NCBI GenBank assembly: GCA_027315165.1
Contig: DAHUYN010000011.1
Coordinates: forward strand, 1-64,000
From: Thermoplasmata archaeon
Lineage (GTDB): Archaea; Thermoplasmatota; Thermoplasmata; Lutacidiplasmatales; UBA184
Reading direction: 5' to 3'
DNA: 64,000 bases
Positions 11,429-54,275 of the stretch are shown in pieces. Made by a program: the position numbers and the translations under genes. The stretch's first letter is position 1. Each line of letters opens with the position of its first letter. The notes beneath the pieces were generated by a model. It worked only from the letters and a program-made list of their open reading frames with translations, made no database searches and had not been told where the DNA came from.

Positions 11429-14400
11429 CGCCCCGCTCGCGCCGGCGTCGGCTCCAGAGCCCCACGAGCGCGACCGCGACGGCCCCGATCGCGAGGAGCC
11501 CGACCGGCACCAGCCAGGGTTGGAGGGGGATCCCGCTCGTGCCCCCGCCGTTTCCCGAGGGGGCGATCGAGACGGACCCCGAGGCGTTGCCCGTGTAGTT
11601 CGGGCCCGTCGCGACCGCGACGAGGGAGACGAGCGCGCAGGCGCCCGTGCAGGCGCCGACCGCCGCTCGCGGGGCCGTGAGCGTGAGGTTCCAGCGACCG
11701 ACCCCGTTCGCCGGCAGGGGGATCGCCCAGCTCCCGGGCCCGGCGGTCCGGTTGCCGACGTAGAGGGTCGCCGAGACGTTCCCGGCGCCGCAGGTCGGGA
11801 CCGCATACGACCCGCAGGACGGGCTCGCGCTGACGTTCACGTCGTAGGTTCCGAGCGGCGCGATGGGGCCGGGGGTCGCCGAGAGGTGCAGCGTCACGAC
11901 CGAGACGGCGTAGGCCTCGACGGTCCAGTTGAGCCTCGCGGGGGTGCCGATCGCGTCGGTGACCACGAGGCTGGCGTTGTAGACGCCCGCCGTCGCGTAG
12001 ACGTGGGCCACGACGGGGCTCGCCGAGACGGTACCGTCGCCGAAGCTCCAGGCGTAGGCGTACGGTCCGCCGGCGCCGCCCGACGCGGAGGCCGAGAAGA
12101 CGACGTCGAGCGGCGCGATCCCCGCCGGCGGTGACGGTCCCGCGGAGACGGTCGGCGAGATCCGGGCGAGCCCGCCGACGGTGACCGCATGGTCGTGGAC
12201 GACGAGGTCCCCCAACGCGTCGCTCGCCGTCACGTTGAGGGTGTAGTTCCCTGGTGTGAGGTAGATGTAGGAGCCGGTCGCGCCGGTGCTCTGCGCGCCC
12301 GCCTGGTAGGTCCACGTCACGAGCGGGCCCGGCATCCCCAGGGCCGTCGCGTGGCCGTTGACGAGCAGCGGCGTCGACCCGTTCGTCGGGCCGACCGACT
12401 CGTTGAGCGTGAGCGCCGCCCAGCGCCGGGCGGTCGTCGAGGGCTGGGGGACCGGCACCGAGACCGAGAGGCGGGTGCCGGCCGCGTCGGTGACGTTGAG
12501 CGCGACGTCGAGCGGGCAGGGGGTGGCGCCGCACTGCGGGGGGCCGTAGGTCTCGACCGCGCTCGCGCCGAACGCCGAGCCGCCGTTCCCGAGGTCCCAC
12601 TGGTAGGTGTACCCCGGCGTCCCACCGGTCGCGTTCGCGTCGAAGGTGAGGAGGGCCCCGAACATCGCGGCCGCGCCCGGCGTGATCGTCGCGGTCACGA
12701 CGAGGGCCCCGCTCGCGCCCGGGGCCTCGGCATCGACGACGAAGAGGCGGCTCACGGTCCACCCACCCGCGTCGACGATCTCGCCCGAGACGACGTAGAG
12801 GCCCGGGCCCGCGAACGTATGGCTCACCGACGCCCCCGTTCCCGAGCCGCCGTCCCCGAAGCTCCAGTTCGCCACGCTCGCGCTGCCGTTGTCGCCGCCG
12901 ACCGCGTGCCCGGTGAACGCGAGGGTGAGGGGCGCCGGTCCCGAGAGCGCCGAGGCGTTGAACCACCCGACGAGCGGGGGTGTCACGAGGATCGACGTGT
13001 TGAGCTCGACCGACCCCAGCAGGCTGTCGTTGACGAACGCCCAGACCGTGTGGCGCCCGACCTCGCGGAAGATCCCGCACTGGCAGGCGGTGACGTACGG
13101 GTCGTCCGAGACGAAGTGGACGGAGTACGGAGGCGTGCCGCCGGCGGCGGTGACGTTGAGGGCGAGGTCGCCGGGCAGCGCGACGGCCGTCGGGAGCGAG
13201 AAGGTCGCGTGGAGGAGCGTCGGATTGCCGCAGCCCGGCACCGCGCTTCCCCCGACGCCGACCCCGACGCGGAGCGACGCGCCGGAGTCCGCCGGCGAGG
13301 CCGCGTCCCAGGCGACGACGTTGGCGCAGTAGCTGCCCGTCACCAAGAACGTGTGCGCGACGGAGGTCTGGCTCGTGTTCGCGTCGTAGGTGCCGTCCCC
13401 AAAGGAGAACGTGTAGCGATACGGTCCCGTGCCCCCGACGGCGCTCGCGTTGAACGTCACCGAGCCACCGGCGGCGACGGAGCCCGCCGACACGTTGAGC
13501 GAGACGTCGAGCGCGCGCGCTCCTCCGACCTGGACGGGCGTGGGCAGGGAGACGCTCGAGTTCCCGTCCTCGAGGAAGACGGTCGCGCGCGCGAGGAAGA
13601 CGCCGTCGTACCGGTAGGTCCAGTTCGCCCATCCCCCGGTCGTCCACGTGGCGTTGTAGTCGCCGAAGTCGATGTCGAACGAGGCGACGGGCGAGGGCGC
13701 GCCCGTGACGCTCGCGTGGAACGTCACCGCGAGCGGGGCGGAGCCGGAGCGTGGTGTCACCGTGAGGTTCACCGTCGGCTGGGGCGCCGACGTCGGGCCC
13801 GCCGCGAGCCTCGAGAGGAGGGCCCCCGCGTTGGGGCTCCCGAGGCCCGTCACCGGGTCCCAACCGGTCCCCGCCGCGTAGCCGTTGTTCCCGTGCTTGA
13901 CGTCGTGGAACACCTTGGACGACAGGCTGGAGCGCGCGAGCGCGTAGAGCCCGGGGTCGAGCAGCCCGAGGTCCCCCGCGTGCTCCTGGTCGGCGATCGC
14001 CGCGAGGCCGGCCCAGATCGGGCAGGAGGCGCTCGTGCCGCCGACGCTCGTCGCGCCGCCCCCGAAGTAGATCGTCACCGGGCTCCCGCCGACGACCGAG
14101 ACGTCGGGGACGCCTCGCCGACTCGCCGTCGTCGGGACCCCGGTCGCGTTCTGCCACGCGGGCCTCGGGAACGGCGACCAACCGCCGCCGCTGCCGCCCT
14201 GGTTGATGCACCCCGGAGAGGTGGCGCCGCTCGCGTTGCCGCTCCAGCCGGCCTCCGAGGAGTAGGCGCCGCTCGTGGTGAGCGTGAGGTCCGTCGCGCC
14301 GACCCCGGTCACGGCGGGGTCGGAGGCGGGGTAGCTCGTCGAGACGCCGCTCGTCCCCATCGCGGCGCCGCAGTCTCCGCTCGCGGCGAAGACGCCGATC

Positions 14401-15614
14401 CCCTCGAGCGCGGCCGCGACGAGGACGGGGTGGAGCGTCTCGTACGAGCCGTCGCTCGAGGCGTTGCAGCCCCCCGAACACGCGCCGGCGAAGGCGTTGA
14501 AGATCCCGACGTCCGGCTCCCCCCAGCTGAGGGAGATCACGTCGGTGGCCTGGTGCGCGACGAGCCAGTCGACGGCGCTGTAGAGGCCGGCCGTCGGGTC
14601 CGGGGCGAACGTCATCTCGACGGTCGCCCCGGGCGCGGAGGCGCGCGCCCACTCGAGGTCGAGGGCCTCCTCGAGGCCCCACTGCGTGTAGGACTGGTTG
14701 AGGTTCCGGCTCGTCGGGACCGGGTAGAGATAGCGGACGTTCCCCGAGGGGAGACCGAACGCCGTCGTGAACGAGGAGAGGTCCGAGGCGAGCTGGCTCT
14801 GGGTCTCGGCGGCATCGTAGACGTCGACGACCGCCACCCGGTAGCCGCTCCCGTTCTTCCCCGACGCCAGGAGGCCGCTCGAGTTGTAGGCGGTCGCGAC
14901 GGCGCACGGGTCGTACGGAGCGGACGTCGGGCAGGTGTACAGGCCGGGCGGCTGGGCGACCCGGCCGAGCGAGGTCGCGGCCACGTACGGCCGCGCCACC
15001 GAGAGGTTCCCGAGGCCGAGGGCCCCCGCCCAGGGGTAGCCTTGAGGAAGCCGGGCGGAGGTCCCGTGCGAGTAGAACCAGCCGCCCCCCTCCCGGTACT
15101 CGGAGAAGGTCGTCCCGAACGCCGCACCCATCGGCCCGGCGCCTCCCGAGACGAGGAGGCTCCAACGGTCGGGGCTCGTCGTGACGGAGAGGCCGAGGTG
15201 CTCGAAGTAGGCGACGGCGCCCTCGTAGACGTCGGAGGAGGGCGCGAACCGGTCCGCGACCTGTTGCGCCGTGAGGAACTGCCGGTACTCCGGCGTCCCG
15301 GGGGTCGAGACGAGGGCGAGCGTCGCCTCGAGCGAGGCCGCGTCCGACGGGGCGAGCGTCACCTCGACGTCGAGCGGGGCCGCGGCGGGCAGAGGGCCGG
15401 CGTCGACGACGCCCGGCGCCATGACGTAGGCCGGTGCGACGACGACGCCACCCGACGTCGAGCCCGCCCCCGGGCCGCTCGGGCCGGCGCCCGGCGACGG
15501 CCCCGATCCCGTGAGGCCGAGGCCCGCGGTGAGGAGACAGAGGACCGTCGCGACCGCCGCGAATAGGAGAAGGCCCCCGGGTCGCTGGAACCCCGCCCGG
15601 CCCCGCACGCTCAC
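11379..15614 (-). CDS. Secreted S53 (sedolisin) protease with PKD repeats and C-terminal anchor
   Basis: A 1411-residue surface protease. After a signal segment (about 13-35) comes a pro-kumamolisin activation domain (about 60-200), then an S53 catalytic domain with Glu315 and Asp319 in an ExxxD motif, oxyanion Asp414 in ASGDCG, and nucleophile Ser528 in GGTSASCP. A calcium-site GWDPVTGLGSP follows near residue 585. About six PKD-like beta-sandwich repeats with FGDG or similar motifs fill residues 610-1340. One transmembrane helix near 1370-1390 is followed by a basic tail, giving an N-out, C-in protein. The GTG start has GGAGGGAG about 8 nt upstream. Many N-x-S/T sites suggest glycosylation. 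S53 enzymes usually prefer acidic pH. Confidence 0.92.
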   Translation of the reverse strand: MSVRGRAGFQRPGGLLLFAAVATVLCLLTAGLGLTGSGPSPGAGPSGPGAGSTSGGVVVAPAYVMAPGVVDAGPLPAAAPLDVEVTLAPSDAASLEATLALVSTPGTPEYRQFLTAQQVADRFAPSSDVYEGAVAYFEHLGLSVTTSPDRWSLLVSGGAGPMGAAFGTTFSEYREGGGWFYSHGTSARLPQGYPWAGALGLGNLSVARPYVAATSLGRVAQPPGLYTCPTSAPYDPCAVATAYNSSGLLASGKNGSGYRVAVVDVYDAAETQSQLASDLSSFTTAFGLPSGNVRYLYPVPTSRNLNQSYTQWGLEEALDLEWARASAPGATVEMTFAPDPTAGLYSAVDWLVAHQATDVISLSWGEPDVGIFNAFAGACSGGCNASSDGSYETLHPVLVAAALEGIGVFAASGDCGAAMGTSGVSTSYPASDPAVTGVGATDLTLTTSGAYSSEAGWSGNASGATSPGCINQGGSGGGWSPFPRPAWQNATGVPTTASRRGVPDVSVVGGSPVTIYFGGGATSVGGTSASCPIWAGLAAIADQEHAGDLGLLDPGLYALARSSLSSKVFHDVKHGNNGYAAGTGWDPVTGLGSPNAGALLSRLAAGPTSAPQPTVNLTVTPRSGSAPLAVTFHASVTGAPSPVASFDIDFGDYNATWTTGGWANWTYRYDGVFLARATVFLEDGNSSVSLPTPVQVGGARALDVSLNVSAGSVAAGGSVTFNASAVGGTGPYRYTFSFGDGTYDANTSQTSVAHTFLVTGSYCANVVAWDAASPADSGASLRVGVGVGGSAVPGCGNPTLLHATFSLPTAVALPGDLALNVTAAGGTPPYSVHFVSDDPYVTACQCGIFREVGRHTVWAFVNDSLLGSVELNTSILVTPPLVGWFNASALSGPAPLTLAFTGHAVGGDNGSASVANWSFGDGGSGTGASVSHTFAGPGLYVVSGEIVDAGGWTVSRLFVVDAEAPGASGALVVTATITPGAAAMFGALLTFDANATGGTPGYTYQWDLGNGGSAFGASAVETYGPPQCGATPCPLDVALNVTDAAGTRLSVSVPVPQPSTTARRWAALTLNESVGPTNGSTPLLVNGHATALGMPGPLVTWTYQAGAQSTGATGSYIYLTPGNYTLNVTASDALGDLVVHDHAVTVGGLARISPTVSAGPSPPAGIAPLDVVFSASASGGAGGPYAYAWSFGDGTVSASPVVAHVYATAGVYNASLVVTDAIGTPARLNWTVEAYAVSVVTLHLSATPGPIAPLGTYDVNVSASPSCGSYAVPTCGAGNVSATLYVGNRTAGPGSWAIPLPANGVGRWNLTLTAPRAAVGACTGACALVSLVAVATGPNYTGNASGSVSIAPSGNGGGTSGIPLQPWLVPVGLLAIGAVAVALVGLWSRRRRERGASPSRPREGPGAPPVA

Positions 15615-15730: not shown

Positions 15731-17083
15731 GTGAGCTCGCTCGACGGGTGGACGATCGCCCTCGTCCTCGTGGTCGTCTACGCCGTCGTCCTGCTCATCC
15801 TGTACAAGCTCCGCTGGATCGGCCCGGAACGGGCGCTGAGCCTCTACGGCCCGGCCCTGATGCTCAAGACGAAGCGGGGGCGCGACGCGCTCGACCGGAT
15901 CGGCCGGGCCCGCCGGTTCTGGACGATCGCGGCCGACGTGGGGATCGCGCTCGCCGCCCTGTCGATGGTGACGATCGTCGTCGTCCTCGCGCTCGACGCC
16001 GTCGTGGCGCTCCAGATCCCTGCGAGCGCCGCGCCCAGCCCCCAGGAGGCGCTCGGGATCCCGGGGATCAACCCGATCATCCCGGTCGGCTACGGCCTCA
16101 TCGCGCTCGTCCTCGGCGTCGTGCTCCACGAGCTCGCGCACGGGATCGTCGCGCGGTCGCAGGGGATCGGCGTGCGGAGCCTGGGGATCCTCTGGCTCGT
16201 CATCCCGATCGGCGCGTTCGTCGAGCAGGACGATGACGACATGACGAAGGCGCCCCGGCGCAAGCGCGACCGGGTCGCCGCCGCCGGCATCCTGGCGAAC
16301 TTCGTCATCGCGATCGTCTGCTTCACGGCGCTCTCCGCGGTCGTCGCGACGAGCGTCGAGCCGAACGCGAACGGGGTCGGGATCGGCTACGTCGTGCCGG
16401 GGACCCCCGCGGCGAACGCGAGCCTCGCGCCCGGCGACATCATCACGGCCGTCAACGGCACGCCGACGACCACGAACTCAGAGCTCCTCGCGCTCCTCGG
16501 GTCGACGCATCCGAACGAGACGGTCGTCCTCACCTACTACAGCGCGAGCGACCACGCCCTCCTCAACCGCTCGGTCACGCTCACCTCGCTCGCCTCCTAC
16601 ACGCACAACACCGCCGACCGGGACCGGGGCTTCCTCGGCGTCTCGCCGGCGTTCCTGACTCCGGGCCAGCTCCGACAAGAGCTCATCTTCCCGCCGGCGA
16701 CGACCTCGAACCCGCTCCTGGGGCTCACCGACTGGATCGTCCTGCCGCTGGCCGGGCTCGAGCCCGTCGGCGGCACGACCGTCTCCTTCTACCACCTCAG
16801 CGGGCCGTTCTCCGGCACCGACCCCGGCGCCTTCTGGGTCGGCGCGAACATCCTCTACTGGCTCGCCTGGATGAACATCCTCCTGGGGATGTCGAACGCG
16901 CTCCCGCTGTTCCCGCTCGACGGCGGGCTCCTCTTCCGCGACTTCGCCGCCTCGGTGGCGGCGCGCCTCCGCCGGGGCTGGGACTCGGCCCGCCTCGACC
17001 GGTTCGGGGCGCGGGCCGCCGCCGTCGCGTCGCTCGCCGTCCTCTTCCTTCTCGCATGGCAGTTCGTCGCGCCGAGGCTGTAG
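15731..17083 (+). CDS. Site-2-type intramembrane metalloprotease (M50) with PDZ domain
   Basis: A 450-residue polytopic membrane protease. It has two N-terminal hydrophobic segments, then the zinc motif HELAHG near residue 137 within a membrane helix. A PDZ-like domain follows (about 215-300, with GTPAANASLAPGDIITAVNG), and the second metal-ligand motif is NALPLFPLDGG near residue 395. Family members cut substrates inside the membrane, often releasing membrane-bound regulators. The stop overlaps priL by 28 nt. It lies divergent from the S53 protease gene. Substrates cannot be read from sequence. Confidence 0.92.
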   Translation: MSSLDGWTIALVLVVVYAVVLLILYKLRWIGPERALSLYGPALMLKTKRGRDALDRIGRARRFWTIAADVGIALAALSMVTIVVVLALDAVVALQIPASAAPSPQEALGIPGINPIIPVGYGLIALVLGVVLHELAHGIVARSQGIGVRSLGILWLVIPIGAFVEQDDDDMTKAPRRKRDRVAAAGILANFVIAIVCFTALSAVVATSVEPNANGVGIGYVVPGTPAANASLAPGDIITAVNGTPTTTNSELLALLGSTHPNETVVLTYYSASDHALLNRSVTLTSLASYTHNTADRDRGFLGVSPAFLTPGQLRQELIFPPATTSNPLLGLTDWIVLPLAGLEPVGGTTVSFYHLSGPFSGTDPGAFWVGANILYWLAWMNILLGMSNALPLFPLDGGLLFRDFAASVAARLRRGWDSARLDRFGARAAAVASLAVLFLLAWQFVAPRL

Positions 17084-18843: not shown

Positions 18844-19428
18844 CTACCGGACCGGGCGCAAAAGATAGTCGGTCACGGCCGGGTCGGCGAGCCAGTCGAC
18901 CCGGCCGACCCTCGGTGGGGGCCGGGTCGAGAGCAGGCGCGCGACGGTGCGCGCGACGCTCTCGGCCGTGCGACCGCTCGTGTCGACCTCCCACACCCGG
19001 CGTCCGAGCGCGAGGGCTTCGAGGAGGATCACGTCGGTCGCCTCGGCCTCGACGTTCTCGCGACGCTCGAGCGCGGTGCCGCGCCGAGCCCGGTCGAGGC
19101 GGGCCGCGAGCTCGACCGGGTGGCAGCGGAGGACGATGACGTCCCGCACGGGCAGGAGATGCGACAGGTGGCCGACGAGCACCTCGGGGAGGCCGCCCCG
19201 TCCGGTCCGCAGGTACCGGGAGAGCCGCGCCAGGTCGACCTCGACGCCGTGCTCGAGCGGCCGGCCGGCGCCGACCTCGATCGCGAGCTCCGAGACCTCG
19301 CCAACGACCCGTCGGCGCGCGAGCCGCCGCGCCACCGAGGACTTCCCGGTCCCCGGCGTCCCGGACAGCGCGACGGGGGCCCGGACCCGGGGGCGCGGAA
19401 GGCTCGCCCTACGCCGAAGTTCGCTCAC
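18844..19428 (-). CDS. AK6/Fap7-type adenylate kinase (small-subunit maturation factor)
   Basis: A 194-residue P-loop protein with Walker A GTPGTGKS at residues 23-30, an NMP-binding middle region, and the LRCHPVELAARL and ERRENVEAEATDVILLEAL segments typical of Fap7/AK6. Archaeal members have ATPase/adenylate kinase activity and help mature the small ribosomal subunit with uS11. The GTG start has a TATA-like CCTTATCG (minus strand, about 19447-19454) roughly 23 nt upstream. It diverges from the large S53 protease gene. Confidence 0.88.
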   Translation of the reverse strand: MSELRRRASLPRPRVRAPVALSGTPGTGKSSVARRLARRRVVGEVSELAIEVGAGRPLEHGVEVDLARLSRYLRTGRGGLPEVLVGHLSHLLPVRDVIVLRCHPVELAARLDRARRGTALERRENVEAEATDVILLEALALGRRVWEVDTSGRTAESVARTVARLLSTRPPPRVGRVDWLADPAVTDYLLRPVR

Positions 19429-19535: not shown

Positions 19536-22500
19536 ATGCGCGAGTCCGCCCCGCCCCGTAGCGCCCATGCTGGCCGGCCGTTCACCCTTTCCCATCGTCG
19601 GGTGGGCGCCGTCGCGCTGACCTTCCTCATGCTCGCCTCCTCCGGGGCGTTCGTCGCGGCCGGAGCCCTTGCGGCCCCCGCCTCGTCGACGCACACCCCC
19701 CTCGCGAGCGCCTCCGTCCTCGCGGGCGTCGTCCCGGGGCCGAAGCTCGCGGCCGGGCCGTTCACGACCCAGCCGGGGACCCCGGTCTCGACGACCCCGA
19801 ACGCCACCGTCGTCGGCCCCGTCGCGCCGACGATGCCGACCCTCTTCACGATCGGATTCCAGATGCGCAACTCGGAGGAGCTCGCGCAGTTGCTGCAGGC
19901 GCAGTCGACCCCGGGCTCGCCGATGTTCCACCAGTGGCTGACCGTCGACCAGGAGCGGACGATGTTCGGCGCCGACCCGGTCGCCTATCAGAACACGATC
20001 AACTACTTCACGTCCCTCGGGTTCAAGGTCCAGACCGAGGGGCTCCTCTCCGTCTCGTTCTCGGGCAGCGCCGCCCAGGTGGCGACCGCGTTCCACACGC
20101 AGCTGTCGAACGTCGCCTACGGCAACGGCCAGACGGCGTCGATGAACTCCGAGCCGCTCTCGCTCCCGGCGTCGATCGCCACCGAGGTCTCCTCGGTCAA
20201 CGGCTTCGATGGCGCGCAGGTGGCGCAGCCGACCTCCTACGTCAATCCCCAGGTCCTCCAGGACATGCAGGGGTCGTCGCCCATCGTCGTCCCGGCCGGC
20301 GCCCCGCTCCCGTCGCAGCTCTCGGGCGCCGCGAGCCCCGTCGGGAACCTGTCGACGATCTTCAACGTGAGCCACCAGGGCTTCTTCTGGGTCTACTACT
20401 ACTCGCACTCCCACCACCGCTACATCTCGTTCCAGGTCGTCACGCCGGGGGCGCTGAACGCGCTCTACAACGGCAGCCAGCTGATCGACCAGGGCATCAA
20501 CGGTGACTCGACCGGGAGCCCGATCACGATCGCGATCATCATGGCGGGCGGGATCAACCCGACCGACATGCAGGGCTGGGGGGACCTCGCGTGGAACAAC
20601 CCCAACCAGATCACCAATCGCCTCACGCCGACGCCCGTCGACGGCGCGTTCACCGACAACGGGACGGTCTACTGGACCGACGGCGCCTCGAGCGAGATGG
20701 CGCTCGACATCGAGTTCTCGAGCACGATGGCCCCCGGCGCGCACATCATGCCCGTCTACGGTCCGTGCCTCTGCACGAACGTCCTCGACGACGACTACGC
20801 GCTCCTGTCGACGATGGCCAAGGTCCCCAACATCATCTCGAACTCGTGGGGCGGGAGCGAGGACCGCTGGCCCAGCCTCTACGGGCCGAACTGGGCCAAC
20901 GCGCTGACGATGCACGACTACTTCATGCTCCTCACCGGCCGCGGCTCCACGGTCCTCGCGTCGAGCGGGGACGGCGGTGGCTTCGACACGGGCACGGGCA
21001 TGCTCTCGGGCAGCTTCCCGGCGACCGACCCGTACGTCCTCGCCGTGAACGGGCTTCGGACGAGCGTGACGGACGCCTCGGGGAGCCCCTTCCCGAGCCA
21101 GACCTCCTACGGGATCGTGAATATCTCGATCGGAGTGAACCCGCAGTCGCCGATCTTCTTCAACTACCCGGTCCACGCCGGCCAGGTGACGCGGCTCCTC
21201 TCCCAGACCTACTGGTACGAGCCCTACTCGAACTACACGCTCTACAACTCCCCGCCGCAGGGCTCGGGTGGGTTCGACACGAGCTACTGGTTCAACCAGA
21301 CGTGGATGGAGCACGGCTACGGGATCCCGGACCTGGGCCGGTCGCTCGGCAGCGGTGTCGCGGCGGAGGCCGACTACAACCAGTCGATCTACTTCGACGG
21401 GTCGATGCAGTTCTTCTGGGGCGGGACGTCGTTCGCCTGCCCGACGACCGCCGGCATGTTCGCGCTCGTCGAGGACTACCTCGCGCACTCGGGGCACAAC
21501 CCGTACCTCGGGAACGGCAACGGGGTCGTTTACGACGTCTGGAACGCCTGGAGCAACGGGAACCTCACGTTGAAGCCGTTCTACGACATCGCCTCGCCGA
21601 ACGGCGGCAACGCGAACGGCACGAGCTTCTGGGGCAACTTCGGCGTCCAGCAGGGCTACGAGTTCCCGCCCGGCCAGAAGTTCCCCTATTCGCACGGCTC
21701 GACGACCTACGGCAACACGACGCCCGGCTGGGACTTCCCGACGGGCTTCGGGTCGGTCATCGTCGACAACTTCGCCGAGGATCTCGCGGCGCTCGAGTCG
21801 ATGCCCGGGACGTTCATGACGACGAACGCCGCGGGTACGGCCTACGACTACGGCGCCTGGGCGTACATGGTGCTGAACCACACGTACAGCATCCACGTTA
21901 ACCTGACTTCAGCGCTCCAACTGTCGGGCCCTCATGTGACCGTTGTCTTCCACGGTGCTGACGGTACGAACACATCGATGCAGCCGACTCTGACATCGAC
22001 GGGACTACCCTCCACCGGGATGACCTTCGCGCTCGACACCGGAACTGCCCCGTACTCGCAACCCGGCTTCGTGGTCTTCGAACTGGGCAACAGCACTTCG
22101 AACTCGATCGGCTTCTCCTACGATTGGATCTCCTACCCGGCGCCGACCGGCGGCACCCTGAACGTCACGGTCGTCGCACCTTCGTCGAGCCAGATCCTCT
22201 CGGGCTACCCGCAGTTCAACCCGTGGCCGTTCGGCTACTTCGCCCCGGTCATGGTCGACCCGAACTGCTGCACGAGCGTCCCCAACACCTTCACCGTCCA
22301 CGTGACGCTCAACGGGGCGGGCGTCTACAACGCGGCCGTCACGGCCCAGATCCCCTCGCTCTCGGTCCTCGCCTGGCAGGGCTCGCGGATCCAGTCCGCG
22401 ACGCAGTCCTTGGGCAACCCGCACGAGCAGTCGTCGACGACGCTCTCCTTCTCGTACACGAACGAGACCGGCTACGCGGTCGTCTACACCTGGAACCTCG

Positions 22501-24512
22501 TCGCGCCGACCCCGTACTTCGTCAACGCCTCCTTCGGGGCTGCGACCGGCGGGACCGTGTTCCAGCTCTCTCCAGGGCCGAACGTCAAGACGACGGACGT
22601 GGCGGGCGGAAAGTACTCGCAGTTCAACACGGTCGACTACGTCCTCACGAACCTCCGCCAGCCGGTGAACCCGACCACGGAGGACCTCTGGGCGCCGAAC
22701 TCGAACAACCAGACGGGCTACTACAACCTCCTCTACGGGTGGCAGGGAGAGGTCCTCCCCGTGAGCACGAACGATTACGCGGGCCACGCGATGCCCGGCA
22801 CGCACGTCTGGCTCGGGACGCTCGACACGGGCGGGGAGAATCGGTTCTACTCCTACCAGCCGAGCTTCGGGGTCGTCGGCGTCACGAACACGAGCGGGAC
22901 GTCGAACATCACCGACCCGACGGGCAACGCGACGATCTTCATCCCGGACAACATGACGGACAACAACTTCTTCACCTACCCCAACGGGCAGACCGCAGGC
23001 TTCGGCTATGTGGCGGCCTCGATGGCCGGCCAGTCGAACCGGACGTTCAGCTACACCGAGCCGTGCCCGCCCACGCTGCCGAACCCGGCGTCGCTCATCA
23101 CCTGCCAGTTCAACGACACCTACCAGCGCAACTACACCGCCGTCCCGATCCTGATCCTGCAGGACCCCGTGAACGTGACGACGCAGACCTCCTCGGGGAC
23201 CGCCCGGGACTTCTTCAGCTCCGGCGGGAACATCTCCTGGCGCGTCAACGTCCTGCTCCCGGGCAACGACCCGTTCGTCAATGGCTACGGGTTCGACTGG
23301 CTGCCCGGCGTCGAGCACGTCGTCTCGGTCAAGGCCTACGTCGACGGCCAGTTCGCGGGTGACCTCTCGCCCGCCTCGTACTCACAGTGGCAGAACTACA
23401 CGGCGACCGGGAACCTCACGGGAAACTACGGGCCCGGGATCCACGACCTGAGGGTCGTCGCGACGGACAGCGTCGGCCACACGTTCACGCGGGACCACAC
23501 CTTCGTCATCGGGGCGATCGACATCACGGACCTCTCGATCCAGAACACCTACACCGTGCTGCCGTTCAACCTGACGTGGAGCTACGTGATCCCGCCCTCG
23601 GAGATGAACAACCACAGCTTCTCGCAGTCCCTCCAGATCCGCTACGTGGCCCCCGGCTGCGGAACGAGCTTCCCCTGCCCGGTGGTCGTGAACTACACGA
23701 TCAAGGTCCGGGACGGCGTCGTCGACTACAACCAGAGCCTCAACCTCACCCTGCTCAGCCTCGACAACTTCTACTCGGGCGCGACCAGCCTGCCTCCAGG
23801 CCAGTACCAGATCATCGTCTGGCTCAACGCGAACCATAGCGGTTCCATCGCGAGCCAGGTCAACACGGAGCTCGTCTTCGACCCCGTCAAAGGCCAGATC
23901 AACGGTCCGGGCTCCGGGGACGTCGTCCCGCTCGGGAACGTCACGATCTCCTACGCCTACAGCGGGCAGTACATCCAGAACGCCACGCTCGCCGTCTTCC
24001 CCGTCGGGAGCACGACGCCGGTCTACACGGCGTACGCCTTCGTCCCCGGCCTGAGCGGCCTGAGGGGTGGGGCGGCGCAGTGGACCGCGGTGACGCCGGG
24101 CGCCTACGAGATCGTCCTCGAGCTCGGGACGCCGTACGGGCACGACAACGTCACCTCGAACATCACCGTCGCAGTGACGGCGGGCCAGGTCTACCTCAAT
24201 CAGTCGCATGCGTCCAACGTCGTCGGCGGAGGCAATCCGGCCATCGTCGGGACCATCCTCGTCATCGTCGGGGCGATCCTCGGGCTGTTGGTGGGGCTCT
24301 TCCTGGCGCCCGGGCTGCGGGGTGGGAGCGGCTCGCGCGGGCCGCTGCGACCGAGCGCCGCCGGAGGGGCGGCGGCCGCGCCGGCGCCCTGGAGCGAGGA
24401 GACCTCGAAGGGCGGCGGAGGCAAGCAACGGTGCTCCGTCTGCCAAGAGCAGTTCGAGACCGAGTTCGCGCTGCACCAGCACCTCAAGATCTCGCACGGG
24501 ATCGAGGAGTAG
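19536..24512 (+). CDS. Giant S53 (sedolisin) protease with membrane anchor and cytoplasmic C2H2 zinc finger
   Basis: A 1658-residue surface protease. A signal segment (about 25-47) is followed by a pro-kumamolisin domain (about 100-230) and an S53 domain with Glu387 and Asp391 (ExxxD), Asp479 (SSGDGG) and Ser632 (GGTSFACP). A GWDFPTGFG calcium-site-like motif lies near 730. A long beta-rich, N-x-S/T-rich stalk follows. A single transmembrane helix (about 1569-1590), a basic Gly/Ala/Pro linker and a C2H2 finger (Cys1633, Cys1636, His1649, His1654; C-x2-C-x12-H-x4-H) end the protein. The positive-inside rule places the finger in the cytoplasm. Its stalk and tail resemble the whole of the next gene. 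The ATG has GGAG 8 nt upstream. The segment around 21900-22110 has lower GC3 than the rest. Confidence 0.9.
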   Translation: MRESAPPRSAHAGRPFTLSHRRVGAVALTFLMLASSGAFVAAGALAAPASSTHTPLASASVLAGVVPGPKLAAGPFTTQPGTPVSTTPNATVVGPVAPTMPTLFTIGFQMRNSEELAQLLQAQSTPGSPMFHQWLTVDQERTMFGADPVAYQNTINYFTSLGFKVQTEGLLSVSFSGSAAQVATAFHTQLSNVAYGNGQTASMNSEPLSLPASIATEVSSVNGFDGAQVAQPTSYVNPQVLQDMQGSSPIVVPAGAPLPSQLSGAASPVGNLSTIFNVSHQGFFWVYYYSHSHHRYISFQVVTPGALNALYNGSQLIDQGINGDSTGSPITIAIIMAGGINPTDMQGWGDLAWNNPNQITNRLTPTPVDGAFTDNGTVYWTDGASSEMALDIEFSSTMAPGAHIMPVYGPCLCTNVLDDDYALLSTMAKVPNIISNSWGGSEDRWPSLYGPNWANALTMHDYFMLLTGRGSTVLASSGDGGGFDTGTGMLSGSFPATDPYVLAVNGLRTSVTDASGSPFPSQTSYGIVNISIGVNPQSPIFFNYPVHAGQVTRLLSQTYWYEPYSNYTLYNSPPQGSGGFDTSYWFNQTWMEHGYGIPDLGRSLGSGVAAEADYNQSIYFDGSMQFFWGGTSFACPTTAGMFALVEDYLAHSGHNPYLGNGNGVVYDVWNAWSNGNLTLKPFYDIASPNGGNANGTSFWGNFGVQQGYEFPPGQKFPYSHGSTTYGNTTPGWDFPTGFGSVIVDNFAEDLAALESMPGTFMTTNAAGTAYDYGAWAYMVLNHTYSIHVNLTSALQLSGPHVTVVFHGADGTNTSMQPTLTSTGLPSTGMTFALDTGTAPYSQPGFVVFELGNSTSNSIGFSYDWISYPAPTGGTLNVTVVAPSSSQILSGYPQFNPWPFGYFAPVMVDPNCCTSVPNTFTVHVTLNGAGVYNAAVTAQIPSLSVLAWQGSRIQSATQSLGNPHEQSSTTLSFSYTNETGYAVVYTWNLVAPTPYFVNASFGAATGGTVFQLSPGPNVKTTDVAGGKYSQFNTVDYVLTNLRQPVNPTTEDLWAPNSNNQTGYYNLLYGWQGEVLPVSTNDYAGHAMPGTHVWLGTLDTGGENRFYSYQPSFGVVGVTNTSGTSNITDPTGNATIFIPDNMTDNNFFTYPNGQTAGFGYVAASMAGQSNRTFSYTEPCPPTLPNPASLITCQFNDTYQRNYTAVPILILQDPVNVTTQTSSGTARDFFSSGGNISWRVNVLLPGNDPFVNGYGFDWLPGVEHVVSVKAYVDGQFAGDLSPASYSQWQNYTATGNLTGNYGPGIHDLRVVATDSVGHTFTRDHTFVIGAIDITDLSIQNTYTVLPFNLTWSYVIPPSEMNNHSFSQSLQIRYVAPGCGTSFPCPVVVNYTIKVRDGVVDYNQSLNLTLLSLDNFYSGATSLPPGQYQIIVWLNANHSGSIASQVNTELVFDPVKGQINGPGSGDVVPLGNVTISYAYSGQYIQNATLAVFPVGSTTPVYTAYAFVPGLSGLRGGAAQWTAVTPGAYEIVLELGTPYGHDNVTSNITVAVTAGQVYLNQSHASNVVGGGNPAIVGTILVIVGAILGLLVGLFLAPGLRGGSGSRGPLRPSAAGGAAAAPAPWSEETSKGGGGKQRCSVCQEQFETEFALHQHLKISHGIEE

Positions 24513-24524
24513 CGCGCCCGCGCG

Positions 24525-24548
24525 CCGGCCGGGCCGCGGCCCGGCCGG
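24525..24548. terminator. Perfect 24-bp GC-only palindrome after the S53 gene
   Basis: Positions 24525-24536 and 24537-24548 are exact reverse complements. The element sits 13 nt past the stop and is followed by a pyrimidine-rich stretch (CGGTTTCTCCCTC). It is best read as a transcription end or mRNA 3' hairpin, although a protein-binding palindrome is possible. Confidence 0.45.
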
Positions 24549-24600
24549 TCCCGGTTTCTCCCTCGAGAAGTCGACCGACCTTCAAGAGGCGTATCGTGAG

Positions 24601-24611
24601 GTTTAAGTATT
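24601..24611 (+). promoter_or_regulatory. TATA box for the stalk-finger membrane protein gene
   Basis: GTTTAAGTATT is centred about 26 nt before the ATG at 24631, so this gene has its own promoter and a leaderless transcript is expected. Confidence 0.6.
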
Positions 24612-24630
24612 GTAAGTCGTCACCGTCCCT

Positions 24631-25776
24631 ATGCGCCGGGGTATTGGGTATACACACGGTAGCCTAGCGACGGTCGCCCTCTTGGTGGTCCTGCTTGGGA
24701 CCATCGGACTCGCGGGACTGTCGGTCGCTCCAAGGTCGAGCGCCGGCACGTTCCAGCTGGCCGCCCCGTCGCACGAGATCCAGGCCGCGGCCCTCCCGCA
24801 GCCGGCCGTCGGGCCCGTGAGCGCGCTCGTGACGATCACGAACGCCCCGGGTGCCTACGTGCTGCTCCCGTACGCGGTCAACTGGTCGATCGTCGTCACG
24901 AACGGCTCGGTCACGAAGGGCTCCACGTGGATGTCCGTCGCGGTCGCCGACATCACGGGCAGCGGGGTCTGCGTCCAGGCCCAGACCTGCCCGATCGTCT
25001 CGAACCAGTCGGTCACGAGCCTCGTCCAGACGGGGACCACCTCCTACTCGTTCTCGCTGACGACGGCGAACCTCACCGTCAACGGCCCGCTCCCGCAGGA
25101 CCAGTTCCTGATCTCGGTGTGGGTCACGATCAACAACACCGTGTCGAACGCGACGTTCGGGGCGGGGATCGAGCGGTTCATCGTCCCGTCGACGCCGAAC
25201 GGCGGGTTCGTCGCGCCGCTCTCGGGCGCGTCGCTCTCGACCGGCAACGTCACGATCGGGATCAACTACACCGGCGCCTACGTCAGCGGCGCGCAGGTGA
25301 CGGTCTACCAGGGCACGAGCGCCTCGGGCTCGCTCGTCTACTCGGGCGGGGTCTTCGCGCCGGGCTCGGGTGAGCACGTCGTCATCGCGGCCTCGCCGTG
25401 GTACGTCTCCGTGGCGGGCTCCTACTTCGCGGTTCTGACCCTGACGTCGCCGTACGGGACCTACTCGTTCACGACCTCGTGGACGGTCGTCGCGGCGGGC
25501 CAGACGATCTACCAGAACTCCTCGAGCTACCAGAACCAGACGCTGATCCCGGGGCTCTCCCCCGCGGTCGGCGGAACGGTCCTCCTCGTCGTCGGCCTGA
25601 TCGTCGGCATCGTGGTCGCGATGGCCTTGGGCCGGATGGTCTGGGGCGGCGCGAAGGCGACCCCGGCGCAGCCGTGGCAGGCCAAGCCGACCACGAACGA
25701 GTGCTCGGTGTGCCACCAGTCGTTCGCCACTGAGGCGGAGCTCAAGGAGCACGCGAAGACGGCCCACGGGATGTAA
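24631..25776 (+). CDS. Surface stalk protein with membrane anchor and cytoplasmic C2H2 zinc finger
   Basis: A 381-residue protein with a signal segment (about 10-32) and an extracellular beta-rich region of two Ig-like units with many N-x-S/T sites. One transmembrane helix (about 318-340) follows, then a short basic linker and a C2H2 finger (Cys358, Cys361, His374, His379). The order and several phrases (NVTI followed by Y-x-G-x-Y and a closing TYG/GTPYG strand, then a Q-x-x-Y-x-N segment before the helix) match the last 350 residues or so of the preceding S53 protease, so it looks like that protein's tail without the protease. No enzymatic motif is visible. Role unknown; receptor, adaptor or membrane-tethered regulator are possible. 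Confidence 0.8.
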   Translation: MRRGIGYTHGSLATVALLVVLLGTIGLAGLSVAPRSSAGTFQLAAPSHEIQAAALPQPAVGPVSALVTITNAPGAYVLLPYAVNWSIVVTNGSVTKGSTWMSVAVADITGSGVCVQAQTCPIVSNQSVTSLVQTGTTSYSFSLTTANLTVNGPLPQDQFLISVWVTINNTVSNATFGAGIERFIVPSTPNGGFVAPLSGASLSTGNVTIGINYTGAYVSGAQVTVYQGTSASGSLVYSGGVFAPGSGEHVVIAASPWYVSVAGSYFAVLTLTSPYGTYSFTTSWTVVAAGQTIYQNSSSYQNQTLIPGLSPAVGGTVLLVVGLIVGIVVAMALGRMVWGGAKATPAQPWQAKPTTNECSVCHQSFATEAELKEHAKTAHGM

Positions 25777-25877: not shown

Positions 25878-27110
25878 TCAGGCGAAGCGAAGCGCCCGGT
25901 ACTGGCGCCGCCAGGCGAGGACCTCTCGGCCGACCGACTCGCCCTCGAGCCCGCCGCGGACGAGGAGGCCGGCGAGGCGCTCCATGTCGTGGGGGACGAG
26001 CCCGAGCCGGGCGACCTCGGCGGTCCCGAGGCGTCCGACGAGGTCGGTGATCAGCCGCTGGCGCTCGAGGCGCCGGGCGAGCGCGGCGGGGCCGATCCCG
26101 TGCCGTCGCCGGAGCTCCGCACCGTCGTAGCGGAGCTGGTGCGACGCGGTAAAGCCGTCGGCCTCTCCGACGAGCGGGACCCCGAGCCCGGTGAGGGCCC
26201 GTCCGAGCGCCTGGGCGTTCCCGACGACCGTCTCCGCGTAGTCGCGGCCGACCCGCTCGAGCTCGAGGAGGGTCTGGGCGAGCCCCGCGATCCGGTTCCA
26301 GTGCGCGTTGTCGAAGACCCGCCAGACGAGCGCGGGGTCGAGCCGACGGAACAGGTCCTCATGGTCGGTGACGAGGAGGCCACCCTGGGGGCCGGGGAGC
26401 GACTTGTGCGTGCTCCCGTAGAGGACGTCGGCGCCCTCCCGGAGCGGGTCCTGGAAGCGTCCCCCCGCGATGAGCCCGAGGACGTGCGAGGCGTCGTAGA
26501 GGACGAGGGCGCCGACGGCGTGCGCGGCCTCGGCGATGGCGTCGAGCGGGTAGGGGAAGAGGAAGAAGCTCTGGCCGAGGACGACCGCCTGAGGCCGCTC
26601 GCGCCGGATCGCCTCGACAACGGGCTCCTCGAGGAGCCGGTGCTCGGGGCCCGAGGTCGGTAGCGGCCGCACCGTGTGGCCCAGCAGCGCCGGCACGAAC
26701 CCCTCGGCGTAGCCGTCGTAGCCCCCCGCCTCGGGGGGGATCGCGAGGAGCTTCGAGCCTCTCGGGAGGAGCGGGGCCAGCACGGAGAGCGCGGCGATGT
26801 GGCCCGAGAGGGGACGCACCGTCGCGAACCGACCGTGGAAGAGCCTCGACGCCGCGTCGTTGGCGAGCGTCTCGATCTGGTCGGTGTACCGGGTCCCGGC
26901 GTAGGAGTTGTCGATCGCCTCGCCGTCGAACGTGGTCGAGATCGGGAGCGTGTAGCGGCCCGCGAGGTCGCTCGAGAGGTAGCGGCGGGCCGTCGGCGAG
27001 ACGGCGTTCTCGCTCGGCAGGAGGTTGAACGACTCGCGCCCCCGCCAGCGGTCGTGGGCCCGGACGAGCCGGGCCAGGCGGGCCTCCTCGCTAGTGGGGG
27101 TGGGGGGCAT
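25878..27110 (-). CDS. SHMT-like PLP-dependent enzyme (divergent GlyA family)
   Basis: The 410-residue fold-type I PLP protein has the PLP lysine in YGSTHKSLPGPQGG (Lys236), the Asp/His pair in YDASHVLGLIAGG (Asp206, His209) and the N-terminal NLLPSENAVS of serine hydroxymethyltransferases. SHMT interconverts serine and glycine with a one-carbon carrier. Two differences stand out: the canonical GGHLTHG-type loop is replaced by GGYDGYAEG, and the YAEG/RYYGG region reads AGTRYTDQIE. It may be a lineage-specific SHMT using another pterin, or a related aldolase. It follows csl4 with a 20-nt overlap. Confidence 0.7.
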   Translation of the reverse strand: MPPTPTSEEARLARLVRAHDRWRGRESFNLLPSENAVSPTARRYLSSDLAGRYTLPISTTFDGEAIDNSYAGTRYTDQIETLANDAASRLFHGRFATVRPLSGHIAALSVLAPLLPRGSKLLAIPPEAGGYDGYAEGFVPALLGHTVRPLPTSGPEHRLLEEPVVEAIRRERPQAVVLGQSFFLFPYPLDAIAEAAHAVGALVLYDASHVLGLIAGGRFQDPLREGADVLYGSTHKSLPGPQGGLLVTDHEDLFRRLDPALVWRVFDNAHWNRIAGLAQTLLELERVGRDYAETVVGNAQALGRALTGLGVPLVGEADGFTASHQLRYDGAELRRRHGIGPAALARRLERQRLITDLVGRLGTAEVARLGLVPHDMERLAGLLVRGGLEGESVGREVLAWRRQYRALRFA

Positions 27111-34300: not shown

Positions 34301-34441
34301 CTGTACACCTACTGGGAGCAGCAGAACGTCGTCGTCTCGACCGCGGCGTGGATCGACCCCACGACGTACAACTCGAACGTCTGCATCGGTGGCGGCGGCG
34401 ACTCGAGCTGGTTCACCGTCCAGGGGAACGGGATCTACTAG
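31391..34441 (+). CDS. Oligopeptide-binding protein with pilin-like N terminus and PKD-like domain
   Basis: A 1016-residue extracellular solute-binding protein. Residues 16-19 (RALS) followed by a 21-residue hydrophobic segment match the class III (type IV pilin-like) signal pattern. A Cys-Trp-Pro...Cys pair and a PKD-like domain (about 75-150, with TFGDSS and an HTYTNPGTY ending) come next. The SBP family 5 fold, typical of peptide and nickel binders, starts near residue 290 (ELAPGGSNTEDPAIDYETVG), with a TDVLFSVARTMAF segment. There is no lipobox. A TATA box about 64 nt upstream leaves a leader of about 38 nt with AGAGGAA before the ATG. It converges on the oppBCDF operon, its likely transporter, and is a paralogue of the gene at 55340. 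Confidence 0.88.
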   Translation: MEELNRANVGRWAGQRALSTATAAIILIVVILVVGGLGYVGLSATSSSPVTKSSCWPTNSAACSAGAARSDVGLQVPFRSVQQGSIVPFTATLPAGETATSYTFTFGDSSTPTTQSTNTIQHTYTNPGTYIASTTALVKGATHNNWRSLVVITVTASYASQSAGNAPAVAGSILSNSSQVTGSPPTTILQQGQQVTLQGSYTAGPTNPLYALQAPTWSYSSSLTPASPVATNTTASASFSFASAGTYYVTFVGSAKASTGTVAYQNYTWSVFVAPANFNAGTAGSTSAVSTHKGLNVYELAPGGSNTEDPAIDYETVGYEPILNVYQTLIAYNGSQTGPTYQSYVPVLATCVPGSNTGANNCASLYNGNTLINGYNYTFVIDNHARFYDPGTGNSWPVYPTDVLFSVARTMAFATSPCVGCNNGWILTQALLSAGTGPLGSTSALHAALNNTPQNIWNSVTINGTDCPSVAMTSSNGCVTFHANGNGLNWPYFLELIGDPLGGSIVPCGWFSAPAQGAGIPYWTAGNVSGNGDHPCAAPGTAGYGVDWSTIPWTAWDTYETSGANPPFIGNVQWNMAGSGPYYMQNLQPALSYQLAANPAYASNPLCTWQGCWPAAGKFAQKVSVQWETSQVPGEQAYASGAADFASIPSTDVSFLLQLIQQGKLNAVSFPSISIFFFPYNFNFSMSGALRYTSNPITVPSDFFSYVGIRQFISHAYPYETIQQTINTKGGIQYGFNYGGAIPQFMANYYPTNVSWPSTNPDTNPADVGGAAWWWAQATSPTSPYYDPELASCTASSPCQLPLFGQTGAPDLDQRMALWAASIYSLTNGAVKVNPLDINFVDLVINSLYTGPYLNPMPFYTLGWAPDYPDPTDYVSPLYKAYGTYTENDVVAQQLSQSQFNASSCTAGGHGVGNYTYWSNLAQTTGIPNNCQGAAYAALQSAMAAAAVMPAGPQRVLTYAEAEQIANALALYTYWEQQNVVVSTAAWIDPTTYNSNVCIGGGGDSSWFTVQGNGIY

Positions 34442-52458: not shown

Positions 52459-53962
52459 CGCGGCGGCGGCCCTCTCCTCGTCGACGGTCGAGGACGCGGC
52501 GTTCCTCCCCCACGACCTCTGGGGCTCGCTCGTCCACGCGAGGATGCTCGGCGCCACCGGGATCATCCCCGCGAGGTCGGCCCGCCGGATCGCCGCGGGG
52601 CTCGCGCGCCTCGCCCGCGAGGCCGAGGCCGGCCGGTTCCGCCTCAAGCCCGAGCTCGAGGACGTGCACCTCAACGTCGAGACCGAGCTCACGCGGCGGA
52701 TCGGCCGCGACGGCGAGCGGCTCCACACCGCGCGCAGCCGCAACGACCAGGTGGCGACGGACCTCAGGCTCTTCGAGCGCGACGCGCTCGTGGCGCTCGA
52801 GCTCGCGACCTCCGGGCTCGCGCGGGCGCTCGTCGGGGCGGCCTCGGGGCCGGACGGCCGCAAGGTCGTCGACGGATGGACCCATCTCCAGCCCGCCCAG
52901 CGGCTTTATTGGGGTCAGCTCCTGGGCACGCACGCGCTGCGCCTCGTGCGCGACGCCGAGCGGCTCGCCTCGACGCGCGCGCGCCTTGCCGGCTCCCCCC
53001 TCGGGAGCGGCGCGCTCGCCGGCTCGTCGCTGCCGATCGACCGGCGACGGACGGCGCGCGAGCTCGGGTTCGCCTCGCCGACGCTCTCCTCGGTGGACGC
53101 CGTCTCGGACCGGGACGCCTCGGCGGAGCTGCTGTTCGACGTCGCGTTGGTGCACGTGCACCTCTCCCAGCTCGCCGAGGAGTTCGTCCTCGGCGCGATG
53201 CCCGAGGTCGCTCGGCTCCGGCTGAGCGACGCCTTCGTCACGACGAGCTCGCTGATGCCGCACAAGCGCAATCCCGACCTCGCCGAGCTCGCCCGCGCCG
53301 AGGCGGGTCCCGCGCTCGGCCGGCTCGTCGCGCTCCTCGGGACGCTCAAGGGGCTGCCGATCGGCTACCAGCGGGACCTCCAGGCCGGCAAGCCGCTCGT
53401 CGTCGACGCCGTCTCGAGGGCCCTCCTCCACCTCACCGTCGTCGAGGGGATGGTCGCGACGGCCCGCTACCTCGGCCCGGCCCCCGGTCCGGCCTCCTCG
53501 ACGGCGTCCGTCGAGCTCGCCGATGCGCTCGTCGCGACGGGGCTGCCGTTCCGGACGGCCCACGCCCGCGTCGCGCGCTGGGTGCGCGCGCTGGAGCGCC
53601 GCGGGGCCGGCATCGCCTCCGCCTCCCGCCAGGAGCTCTCGAGGGAGTTCCCCGAGCTCGAGGGGCGCGGGTTCCAGCTCCCGGGCCCGGACGAGGAGGC
53701 CGAGCGCCGCCGCAGCCTGGGCGGGAGCGCCTGGCGCGAGGTGGCGCGCCTGCTCGAGGACGTCGTGGCCCGCCTCGATCGCGTCCGAGGGGCCGCGCTC
53801 CGCGAGCGCGAGAGGCTCCACCGATTGAGGTCCTCGGTCGGGGCCTTCGAGCCGTCGTGGCTCGTCGAGGCCGCTACGCGCCGACCGGCTCGCCGCCGGT
53901 CTCCCGGCCCGCGCCCGGCGCGCGGACGAGGGAGCCGGCCGTCGGCGCGACGCGGCCGTTGA
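52424..53962 (+). CDS. argH: Argininosuccinate lyase
   Basis: ArgH releases arginine and fumarate in the last step. The all-helical 512-residue protein has VHARMLGATGI, HTARSRNDQVATDLRL, TH-QPAQ (WTHLQPAQRLYWGQ) and the family signature SSLMPHKRNPD near residue 284. The ATG at 52424 is preferred; a GTG 24 nt earlier is possible. The last 30 residues (Arg/Pro/Gly-rich) run 89 nt into the convergent C2H2 gene and are probably not conserved. Carbamoyltransferase (argF) and argD are not in the window. Confidence 0.93.
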   Translation: MLRDRFSKPLDSAAAALSSSTVEDAAFLPHDLWGSLVHARMLGATGIIPARSARRIAAGLARLAREAEAGRFRLKPELEDVHLNVETELTRRIGRDGERLHTARSRNDQVATDLRLFERDALVALELATSGLARALVGAASGPDGRKVVDGWTHLQPAQRLYWGQLLGTHALRLVRDAERLASTRARLAGSPLGSGALAGSSLPIDRRRTARELGFASPTLSSVDAVSDRDASAELLFDVALVHVHLSQLAEEFVLGAMPEVARLRLSDAFVTTSSLMPHKRNPDLAELARAEAGPALGRLVALLGTLKGLPIGYQRDLQAGKPLVVDAVSRALLHLTVVEGMVATARYLGPAPGPASSTASVELADALVATGLPFRTAHARVARWVRALERRGAGIASASRQELSREFPELEGRGFQLPGPDEEAERRRSLGGSAWREVARLLEDVVARLDRVRGAALRERERLHRLRSSVGAFEPSWLVEAATRRPARRRSPGPRPARGRGSRPSARRGR

Positions 53963-54275
53963 GCGCGCCCTGGAGGAGCACCGACCGCTCGCGGGCGCTG
54001 AGGCCCGCGTGCTGGCCGTAGAGGTGGATCTCGAGGCTCGCGCGCGTCGCGTACTCGCGCTGGCAGACCGGGCAGAGGAACGACTGAGCGTCCGCCGAGA
54101 AGCGGGCGCACTCGCAGGTGAGCACGTGGCAGGGGATGGGCGTCGTCCGGTCGCGGGGACGGCTGAAGTGGCGGCGCAGGCGACCGATCGGGGGCGCCAA
54201 GAGGTAGTGGCTCGCCCGCAGATGGCCGCAGGACCGGCACGGGAGGAGTCGGAGATGCCGCCGCTGCGTGACCAT
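53874..54275 (-). CDS. Small Cys-rich protein with C2H2 zinc finger
   Basis: From the ATG at 54275 the protein has 133 residues. It has a CRSC pair (Cys13, Cys16), a basic segment, a second Cys cluster (Cys49, Cys54, Cys56) and a C2H2 finger at Cys68, Cys71, His84, His89 with the spacing C-x2-C-x12-H-x4-H. The finger shares the [FY]-A-T-x-A-x-L-x-x-H pattern with the tails of the proteins at 19536 and 24631. No membrane helix is seen, so it is a soluble zinc protein, perhaps DNA- or RNA-binding. It is convergent with argH (89-nt overlap) and divergent from the second ACT gene. Confidence 0.7.
   Translation of the reverse strand: MVTQRRHLRLLPCRSCGHLRASHYLLAPPIGRLRRHFSRPRDRTTPIPCHVLTCECARFSADAQSFLCPVCQREYATRASLEIHLYGQHAGLSARERSVLLQGALNGRVAPTAGSLVRAPGAGRETGGEPVGA

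Follow-up and report, generated by a model that had tools for sequence, protein, structure and literature searches.

The stretch of DNA analyzed here, a window of 64,000 nucleotides from a Thermoplasmata archaeon (contig DAHUYN010000011.1 of assembly GCA_027315165.1), encodes two neighboring exported proteins, an S53 protease and a smaller partner. They share a C-terminal tail that consists of a single membrane helix, a linker in which one tryptophan is conserved, and a predicted C2H2 zinc finger. The organism appears to be a member of Candidatus Lutacidiplasmatales, archaea of acid soils that are uncultured. A first-pass annotation had described both as running from a signal segment through an ectodomain and one helix to a terminal finger of the spacing C-x2-C-x12-H-x4-H, and we recovered this architecture in both open reading frames. 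Comparison with related genomes shows the predicted tail to be a modular unit whose genes occupy a conserved slot of the chromosome, mostly in one archaeal family. That annotation overlooked that, judged from the relatives, the plug-in tail is also carried by thermopsins and by proteins with no recognized protease, and that some of the proteins have lost the finger. The features of the two genes are:

19536..24512, forward strand: S53 (pro-kumamolisin/sedolisin) protease of 1658 amino acids, secreted, membrane-anchored, and finger-tailed (open reading frame, Pfam, alignment)
19800..20207, forward strand: pro-kumamolisin activation domain of the S53 protein, amino acids 89-224 (Pfam PF09286, E 3.3e-22, above cut-off)
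24234..24311, forward strand: predicted membrane helix of the S53 protein, about amino acids 1567-1592 (sequence; 1568-1590 in the AlphaFold2 model)
24384..24395, forward strand: conserved Trp motif APWS in the S53 linker (W1619 invariant in 11 S53 rows)
24432..24497, forward strand: predicted C2H2 finger of the S53 protein, amino acids 1633-1654 (C1633-C1636-H1649-H1654; sequence, AlphaFold2 pLDDT about 75-82)
24631..25776, forward strand: partner of 381 amino acids with signal, two beta-sandwich domains, membrane helix, and finger (open reading frame, AlphaFold2, homology to the S53 C terminus)
25561..25644, forward strand: predicted membrane helix of the partner, amino acids 311-338 (AlphaFold2)
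25672..25677, forward strand: PW motif in the partner linker, amino acids 348-349 (W349 invariant in two alignments of 19 and 28 rows)
25702..25767, forward strand: predicted C2H2 finger of the partner, amino acids 358-379 (Pfam zf-C2H2 E 0.0022, sub-threshold; beta-beta-alpha fold in AlphaFold2, pLDDT about 91)

The S53 protein begins with a hydrophobic signal segment and should be an active enzyme, because it combines a pro-kumamolisin domain with the invariant residues of a sedolisin, namely E387-x3-D391, D479, and GGTS632, which are all retained across 11 aligned rows. We take the sedolisin signature to be a Glu-Asp-Ser triad with E-x3-D and GTS, plus an oxyanion Asp. The S53 tail is ordered NPAIVGTILVIVGAILGLLVGLFLAP, a glycine/arginine linker with PW, and then C-x2-C-x12-H-x4-H-GIEE. 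The partner gene begins 118 bases 3' of the S53 gene on the same strand. Its product has a beta-rich ectodomain after the signal helix, and its residues 68 to 381 share ~34% identity with the C-terminal region of the S53 protein (E 2.2e-24); the linker is clearly basic in the S53 protein only, not in the partner. The AlphaFold2 models of the two proteins each contain the helix and a beta-beta-alpha finger, and the partner is modelled with the greater confidence. The start codons of both genes are ambiguous, and the gene caller favored 19602 for the S53 protein and 24685 for the partner. Assigning a function to the ectodomain through Foldseek was tried and given up, the matches being generic beta-sandwiches with query TM-scores of at most 0.28 among the 50 matches listed. 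In one relative (G063; G and L numbers denote the genomes and loci compared), a 1151-residue Kelch/PKD protein (L119:10664-14119) sits between the S53 and partner genes.

In both proteins of the window, the finger is expected to face the cytoplasm, on a type I single-pass protein with its C-terminal end inside, because positive charge follows the helix and N-glycosylation sequons are enriched in the ectodomain. The net charge is +3 in the S53 protein and +2 in the partner over the 15 residues after the helix, and 0 before it; the S53 ectodomain holds 42 sequons versus a shuffled mean of 19.3, and the partner ectodomain 10 versus 3.4, with none in the tails. Checks of the first-pass topology likewise returned a finger inside, by sequence and prediction only, and a membrane-inserted helix, by prediction only.

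A profile of the tail retrieved 59 distinct tails (E <= 1e-6) from the fetched loci and the window and would miss strongly diverged ones; 54 were counted after leaving out three other proteins (L095, L098, and L105) and two tails cut by a locus or contig end (L084 and L094). The exact finger pattern, which is itself the criterion, is present in 47 of the 54, and the remaining seven contain no degenerate Cys-His remnant of a finger. At the level of sequence, the Cys/His conservation raised by the first-pass annotation is borne out: tails hold all four ligands or no finger. Independently of the criterion, the finger core carries Leu/Met in 47/47 and Phe in 43/47 fingers, and the linker Trp is found in 53/54 tails. 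The composition-only chance of the motif at 12 or fewer residues from the C-terminal end is 2e-7 and 3e-7. Among 385 called genes in the window and 39 relative loci, which were picked because they hold the tail family, the exact motif stands at the end of 47, each of which is a member of that family. In 12 sister pairs, picked among fingered proteins, the ratio of nonsynonymous to synonymous divergence (pN/pS) is 0.19 for the finger, 0.24 for the transmembrane (TM) helix, 0.34 for the ectodomain, and 0.38 for the linker, with identities of 262/288 (finger), 301/415 (linker), and 1686/2128 (ectodomain). The predicted C-terminal fingers are not a product of chance, because the pattern is exact in 47 tails and without trace in the other seven and because the strongest constraint within the tail falls on the finger. 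By these measures, the putative C2H2 finger is under purifying selection. Two tail types can be told apart by their last residues. The 16 S53-like endings (HG-I/V/L-E/D-E) go with F/Y at position +2 in 13 cases and Q at +6 in 14, and tails with other endings have E at +3 in 25 of 31. Such type-specific finger surfaces suggest distinct or two-sided contacts.

The tail profile, built from 16 tails, gave 46 matches with E < 1e-20 in 34 of the 78 genomes of the genus, the genome of the window included. In a scan of 389 genomes of the phylum, with at most 13 candidates scored per genome, matches below 1e-15 outside the genus came only from the same family (G282, G434, G349, and G382). Scanning named genomes with an S53 alignment yielded 29 loci from metagenome-assembled genomes labelled Thermoplasmata, Euryarchaeota, or Thermoplasmatota, one being Candidatus Lutacidiplasma silvani. 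The slot that holds the two genes in the window is marked by the following borders and neighbor:

18844..19428, reverse strand: AAA_18 kinase-like gene, which delimits the slot on one side (Pfam, locus comparison)
25878..27110, reverse strand: serine hydroxymethyltransferase-like (SHMT-like) gene, the other border (Pfam, locus comparison)
15731..17083, forward strand: M50 site-2 protease with a PDZ domain, a conserved neighbor not specific to finger genes (Pfam)

In relatives, the slot lies between a pair of kinase-like and CDP-alcohol transferase genes on one side and a pair of SHMT-like and exosome (ECR1_N) genes on the other, with the M50 site-2 protease and the DNA primase large subunit nearby. 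One fingered protein of G066 adjoins peptide-transporter-like genes instead (genes named by likeness to those of the window). The tail of TM helix plus PW is distributed more widely than the finger.

What precedes the tail differs between genomes. S53 proteases carry it, as judged by orthology in the S53-partner pairs and in G024 and G028, and by Pfam in G382 and G187, the G187 tail being cut by a contig end; G382 has two S53 proteins, one fingered and one finger-less, apparently in tandem across two contigs. Fingered thermopsins are found in G013 and G019 (PF05317, E 5e-58 and 1e-56). The window protein was found to be S53 and not thermopsin (A5), whose catalytic domain is confined to four slot proteins, those of G013, G019, G137, and G377. 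S53 and thermopsin are unrelated acid proteases that share one tail module. Eleven other tail proteins, from a scan covering part of the single-gene proteins, have no Pfam protease domain, and neither has the partner of the window. In a tree of the module with the finger columns removed, one branch sets the S53 tails apart (19 rows, 100/98), and another sets apart the partner, single-gene, and two thermopsin tails (32 rows, 100/97); the thermopsin label requires at least two changes on this tree. A concatenated tree of eight marker genes recovers the S53 genomes as one group (17 rows; SH-aLRT, a Shimodaira-Hasegawa-like approximate likelihood ratio test, 96), G073 being without a marker locus and G382, of another genus, not being counted, and the single-gene fingered proteins are patchy on it (8 changes). 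A single-gene tree had placed the S53 genomes in two groups, but its support for the split was weak. G090, whose contig is cut, is assigned to the S53 type only from its tail.

Across the 47 fingers, helix position -1 is mostly Thr or Ser, position 2 mostly Glu, Phe, Ala, or Asp, position 3 mostly Glu or Ala, and position 6 mostly Glu, Gln, or Ala, and Arg or Lys occurs at these four positions in none of the fingers; the net charge of the finger ranges from -3 to +1 with a mean of -1.1. A single, mildly acidic finger of this kind is an unlikely DNA binder, and a protein ligand is more likely by elimination, because the base-reading positions are non-basic and the mean charge is negative. We propose, with a probability of about one half, that the tail is a modular membrane anchor that ends in a cytoplasmic zinc-finger tag for protein docking, and we do not expect the finger to bind DNA. 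By sequence or prediction, such proteins are built from an export signal, a beta-sandwich juxtamembrane domain, one membrane helix, a Trp linker, and a finger inside, and the module is joined to an S53 protease, a thermopsin, or no recognized protease. The finger would fold around zinc in the cytoplasm and bind a protein. Its ligand may be a shared cytoplasmic protein and possibly also another finger tail, and surface acid proteases and protease-free partners would then be held in, or report to, one complex. That peptide transporters are the ligand is only a guess. The S53 finger is without its core Phe only in G010, G062, G092, and G095 (4/47), where the partner finger is also lost; this fits a shared complex, but the two losses belong to one clade and amount to one evolutionary event.

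Several observations weigh against this proposal. The docking role is an argument by elimination. With a limit of E <= 0.1, Pfam returned no zf-C2H2 match for the S53 finger, and the partner finger, at 18.8 bits, missed the gathering cut-off of 25.2. In the 12 sister pairs, pS is also lower in the finger (0.27 versus 0.39-0.48). On the sequences compared, the finger is maintained where present but dispensable, because 7/54 tails, two thermopsin slot proteins, and 19 relatives are finger-less. The seven tails comprise the partner-type tails of G010, G062, G092, G095, G017, and G100, which are Ser-rich, and the thermopsin-type tail of G377, a genome of another genus than that of the window; the thermopsin slot proteins of G137 and G377 keep the TM helix and PW. 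No fingered gene was found in any of the stretches from the 19 finger-less relatives, which were chosen for having no strong tail match. The slot is closed in 17 of these 19, the contig of G011 stops there, and G081 is rearranged. Finally, an obligate S53-partner pair is excluded by S53 proteins without a partner (G024 and G028) and by partner-type proteins without S53.

It is also conceivable, if unlikely, that the finger is a passive end cap without a specific ligand, whose role would be to halt translocation, to set the topology, or to shield the tail from degradation. Loss of the finger in several lineages, with a Ser-rich tail instead in 6/7, would agree with this, as would the short Arg-rich tails or zinc ribbon at the ends of other secreted proteins of the window and the absence from G282, G349, and G434 of the Gly after the last His, which is invariant in the 16 profile tails. 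However, constraint extends past the ligands in the sister pairs (262/288 residues identical), and the type-specific surfaces are maintained (13/16, 14/16, and 25/31).

Membrane-tethered transcription factors hold a regulatory domain such as a finger at the membrane by one helix until intramembrane proteolysis frees it. By analogy, the ectodomain could be clipped, perhaps by S53 self-processing, and an intramembrane protease could free the finger and alter gene expression, which we consider improbable. One TM helix with a cytoplasmic finger is the appropriate architecture, and an M50 site-2 protease with PDZ lies in the gene neighborhood, in the loci of at least 39 of 54 genomes, many loci being incomplete. 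The 19 finger-less relatives, however, retain the SHMT gene in 19/19 and M50 in 17/19, with both on the same contig in 14/19 at a distance of 2.3-2.5 kb. The M50 linkage is probably housekeeping because M50 stays in relatives without finger genes, and the site-2 protease was rejected as specific evidence since it and the SHMT-like gene hold their position there. Moreover, a single mildly acidic finger without base-reading residues would be a poor DNA binder, and the helices cleaved by site-2 proteases are usually oriented the other way (type II), which counts against such a regulator. The orientation, charge, and gene linkage of the finger proteins give no specific support to a likeness with tethered transcription factors.

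That the S53 and partner tails form a zinc-dependent heterodimer, joined through their fingers and membrane helices, is rather improbable. The genes are adjacent and the tails homologous; small-xxx-small positions, spotted by eye in both membrane helices and including a GxxxG in that of the S53 protein, allow packing of a helix pair. The loss of the partner finger does coincide with that of the S53 core Phe in the four genomes named above, but as one event in one clade, and the finger is intact in S53-only genomes (G024 and G028) and in partner-type-only genomes. That a DNA-binding finger tethers the surface protein to the nucleoid is very improbable, for although the finger profile matches classical DNA-binding fingers in the Protein Data Bank (Zif268, CTCF, and others), these matches reflect the fold, and the 47 tails offer single fingers of net charge -3 to +1 with no Arg/Lys at -1, 2, 3, or 6. 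The Ser/Thr found at -1 and the Gln that some fingers have at 6 are polar residues. Of the tethering suggested in the first-pass annotation, a cytoplasmic docking or tethering role fits, but a nucleoid or DNA tether is not supported, given mildly acidic fingers that lack Arg/Lys at the reading positions.

A parallel to the proposed docking tail was found in another class. G153 encodes an exported protein of 701 residues (L180:3318-5459, reverse strand). This protein has a Lon_C/S16-like domain (E 5.8e-14) and a membrane helix as well as a charged linker, and it ends in a C2H2 finger. It has matches in 71 of the 80 genomes of its class, some of them distant. The finger is probably an independent gain on a third protease type, because 28 of the 29 orthologous tails compared are without it, the remaining one being that of G153 itself. 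The G157 protein, outside these 29 tails, aligns to the G153 protein through query residue 700 with 74% identity. Exported S16/Lon-like proteases of Thermoplasmatota, in G153 and by alignment in G157, are similar to the proteins studied here in having a helix and a C-terminal finger, but the protease is unrelated to S53 and 28/29 orthologous tails are finger-less. A broader and more tentative possibility is that a plug-in docking module (Ig-like domain, TM helix, Trp linker, and C2H2 finger) has been swapped at one locus among S53 proteases, thermopsins, and non-protease partners, was reinvented on an exported S16-like protease of another class, and couples digestion outside to a zinc-dependent complex inside.

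Another finger in the window belongs to a soluble protein, for which the first-pass annotation correctly gave the same spacing as in the tails:

53874..54275, reverse strand: soluble protein of 133 amino acids with one predicted finger (54009-54074; sequence)

Eighteen genomes, that of the window included, have an S53-type tail, and close orthologues of this protein (71-81% identity) occur in 16 of them and in 0 of the 60 others; more distant matches occur in 8 of these 60 other genomes of the genus. The soluble protein was rejected as a partner candidate: its co-occurrence is not independent evidence and may be shared ancestry, because the S53 genomes form one clade.

Other proteins of the window resemble the two finger-tailed ones in part. 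An exported S53/S8-like protease of 849 amino acids (44691-47240, forward strand; Peptidase_S8 E 2.2e-9, Pro-kuma_activ E 8.6e-9) has one membrane helix, an Arg-rich segment, and a long Pro/Ala linker and ends in a zinc ribbon, giving the window two types of predicted zinc-binding tail on surface proteases. A small protein (9446-9856, reverse strand) has membrane helices at its N terminus, a Pro/Ala linker, and a zinc ribbon at its C terminus. The product of 11379-15614 (reverse strand), with pro-kumamolisin and PKD domains, has a membrane helix that leads into a plain Arg-rich tail, in which there is no finger. Two large proteins (31391-34441 and 55415-58384, both forward strand) contain PKD and SBP_bac_5 peptide-binding domains and are possible uptake partners of surface proteolysis. 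Elsewhere in the phylum, L095 (G047), L103 (G324), and L111 (G177) encode internal C2H2 fingers beside hydrophobic segments, by appearance membrane or redox proteins.

S53, thermopsin, and A4 are described as the most prevalent extracellular peptidase families of Lutacidiplasmatales (PMC9287336). The S53 peptidases of acidophilic archaea treated in that work, including those of Lutacidiplasmatales, belong to the same catalytic family as the protease of the window; its main text does not use the word zinc, and a tail of helix plus C2H2 finger is not described in the parts of it available to us (PMC9287336). The Sulfolobus membrane-anchored thermopsins SsMTP and SsMTP-1, the nearest published case in the literature consulted, are alike in being exported acid proteases with extra extracellular domains and a predicted membrane segment, and their authors suggested a signalling role from topology (PMC3958906, PMC4343526). 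They differ in their downstream domains and are not known to share the tail module, and zinc is mentioned in neither text (PMC3958906, PMC4343526). Haloarchaeal zinc-finger micro-proteins contain small archaeal zinc-finger domains like these and have roles in lifestyle decisions, but, as far as that report was available, they are small one-domain proteins and not tails of surface proteins (PMC6562870). In the open-licence literature searched, we found no surface protease described as having a membrane anchor and a C2H2 tail.

On our reading of the field, the surface proteases of archaea are mostly regarded as scavenging enzymes that work alone outside the cell, and, to our knowledge, few C2H2 fingers in archaea have a known role. 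A conserved finger, predicted to be cytoplasmic, on at least two unrelated surface proteases implies a physical link to the cell interior. The coupling of extracellular digestion to uptake or regulation becomes testable with a tail peptide of ~40 to 60 residues, and the known C2H2 fingers gain a class whose ligand is probably a protein. If the broader possibility of a swapped and reinvented docking module is true, these proteins would represent a protease-coupled surface receptor of a kind that we did not find described in archaea in that literature.

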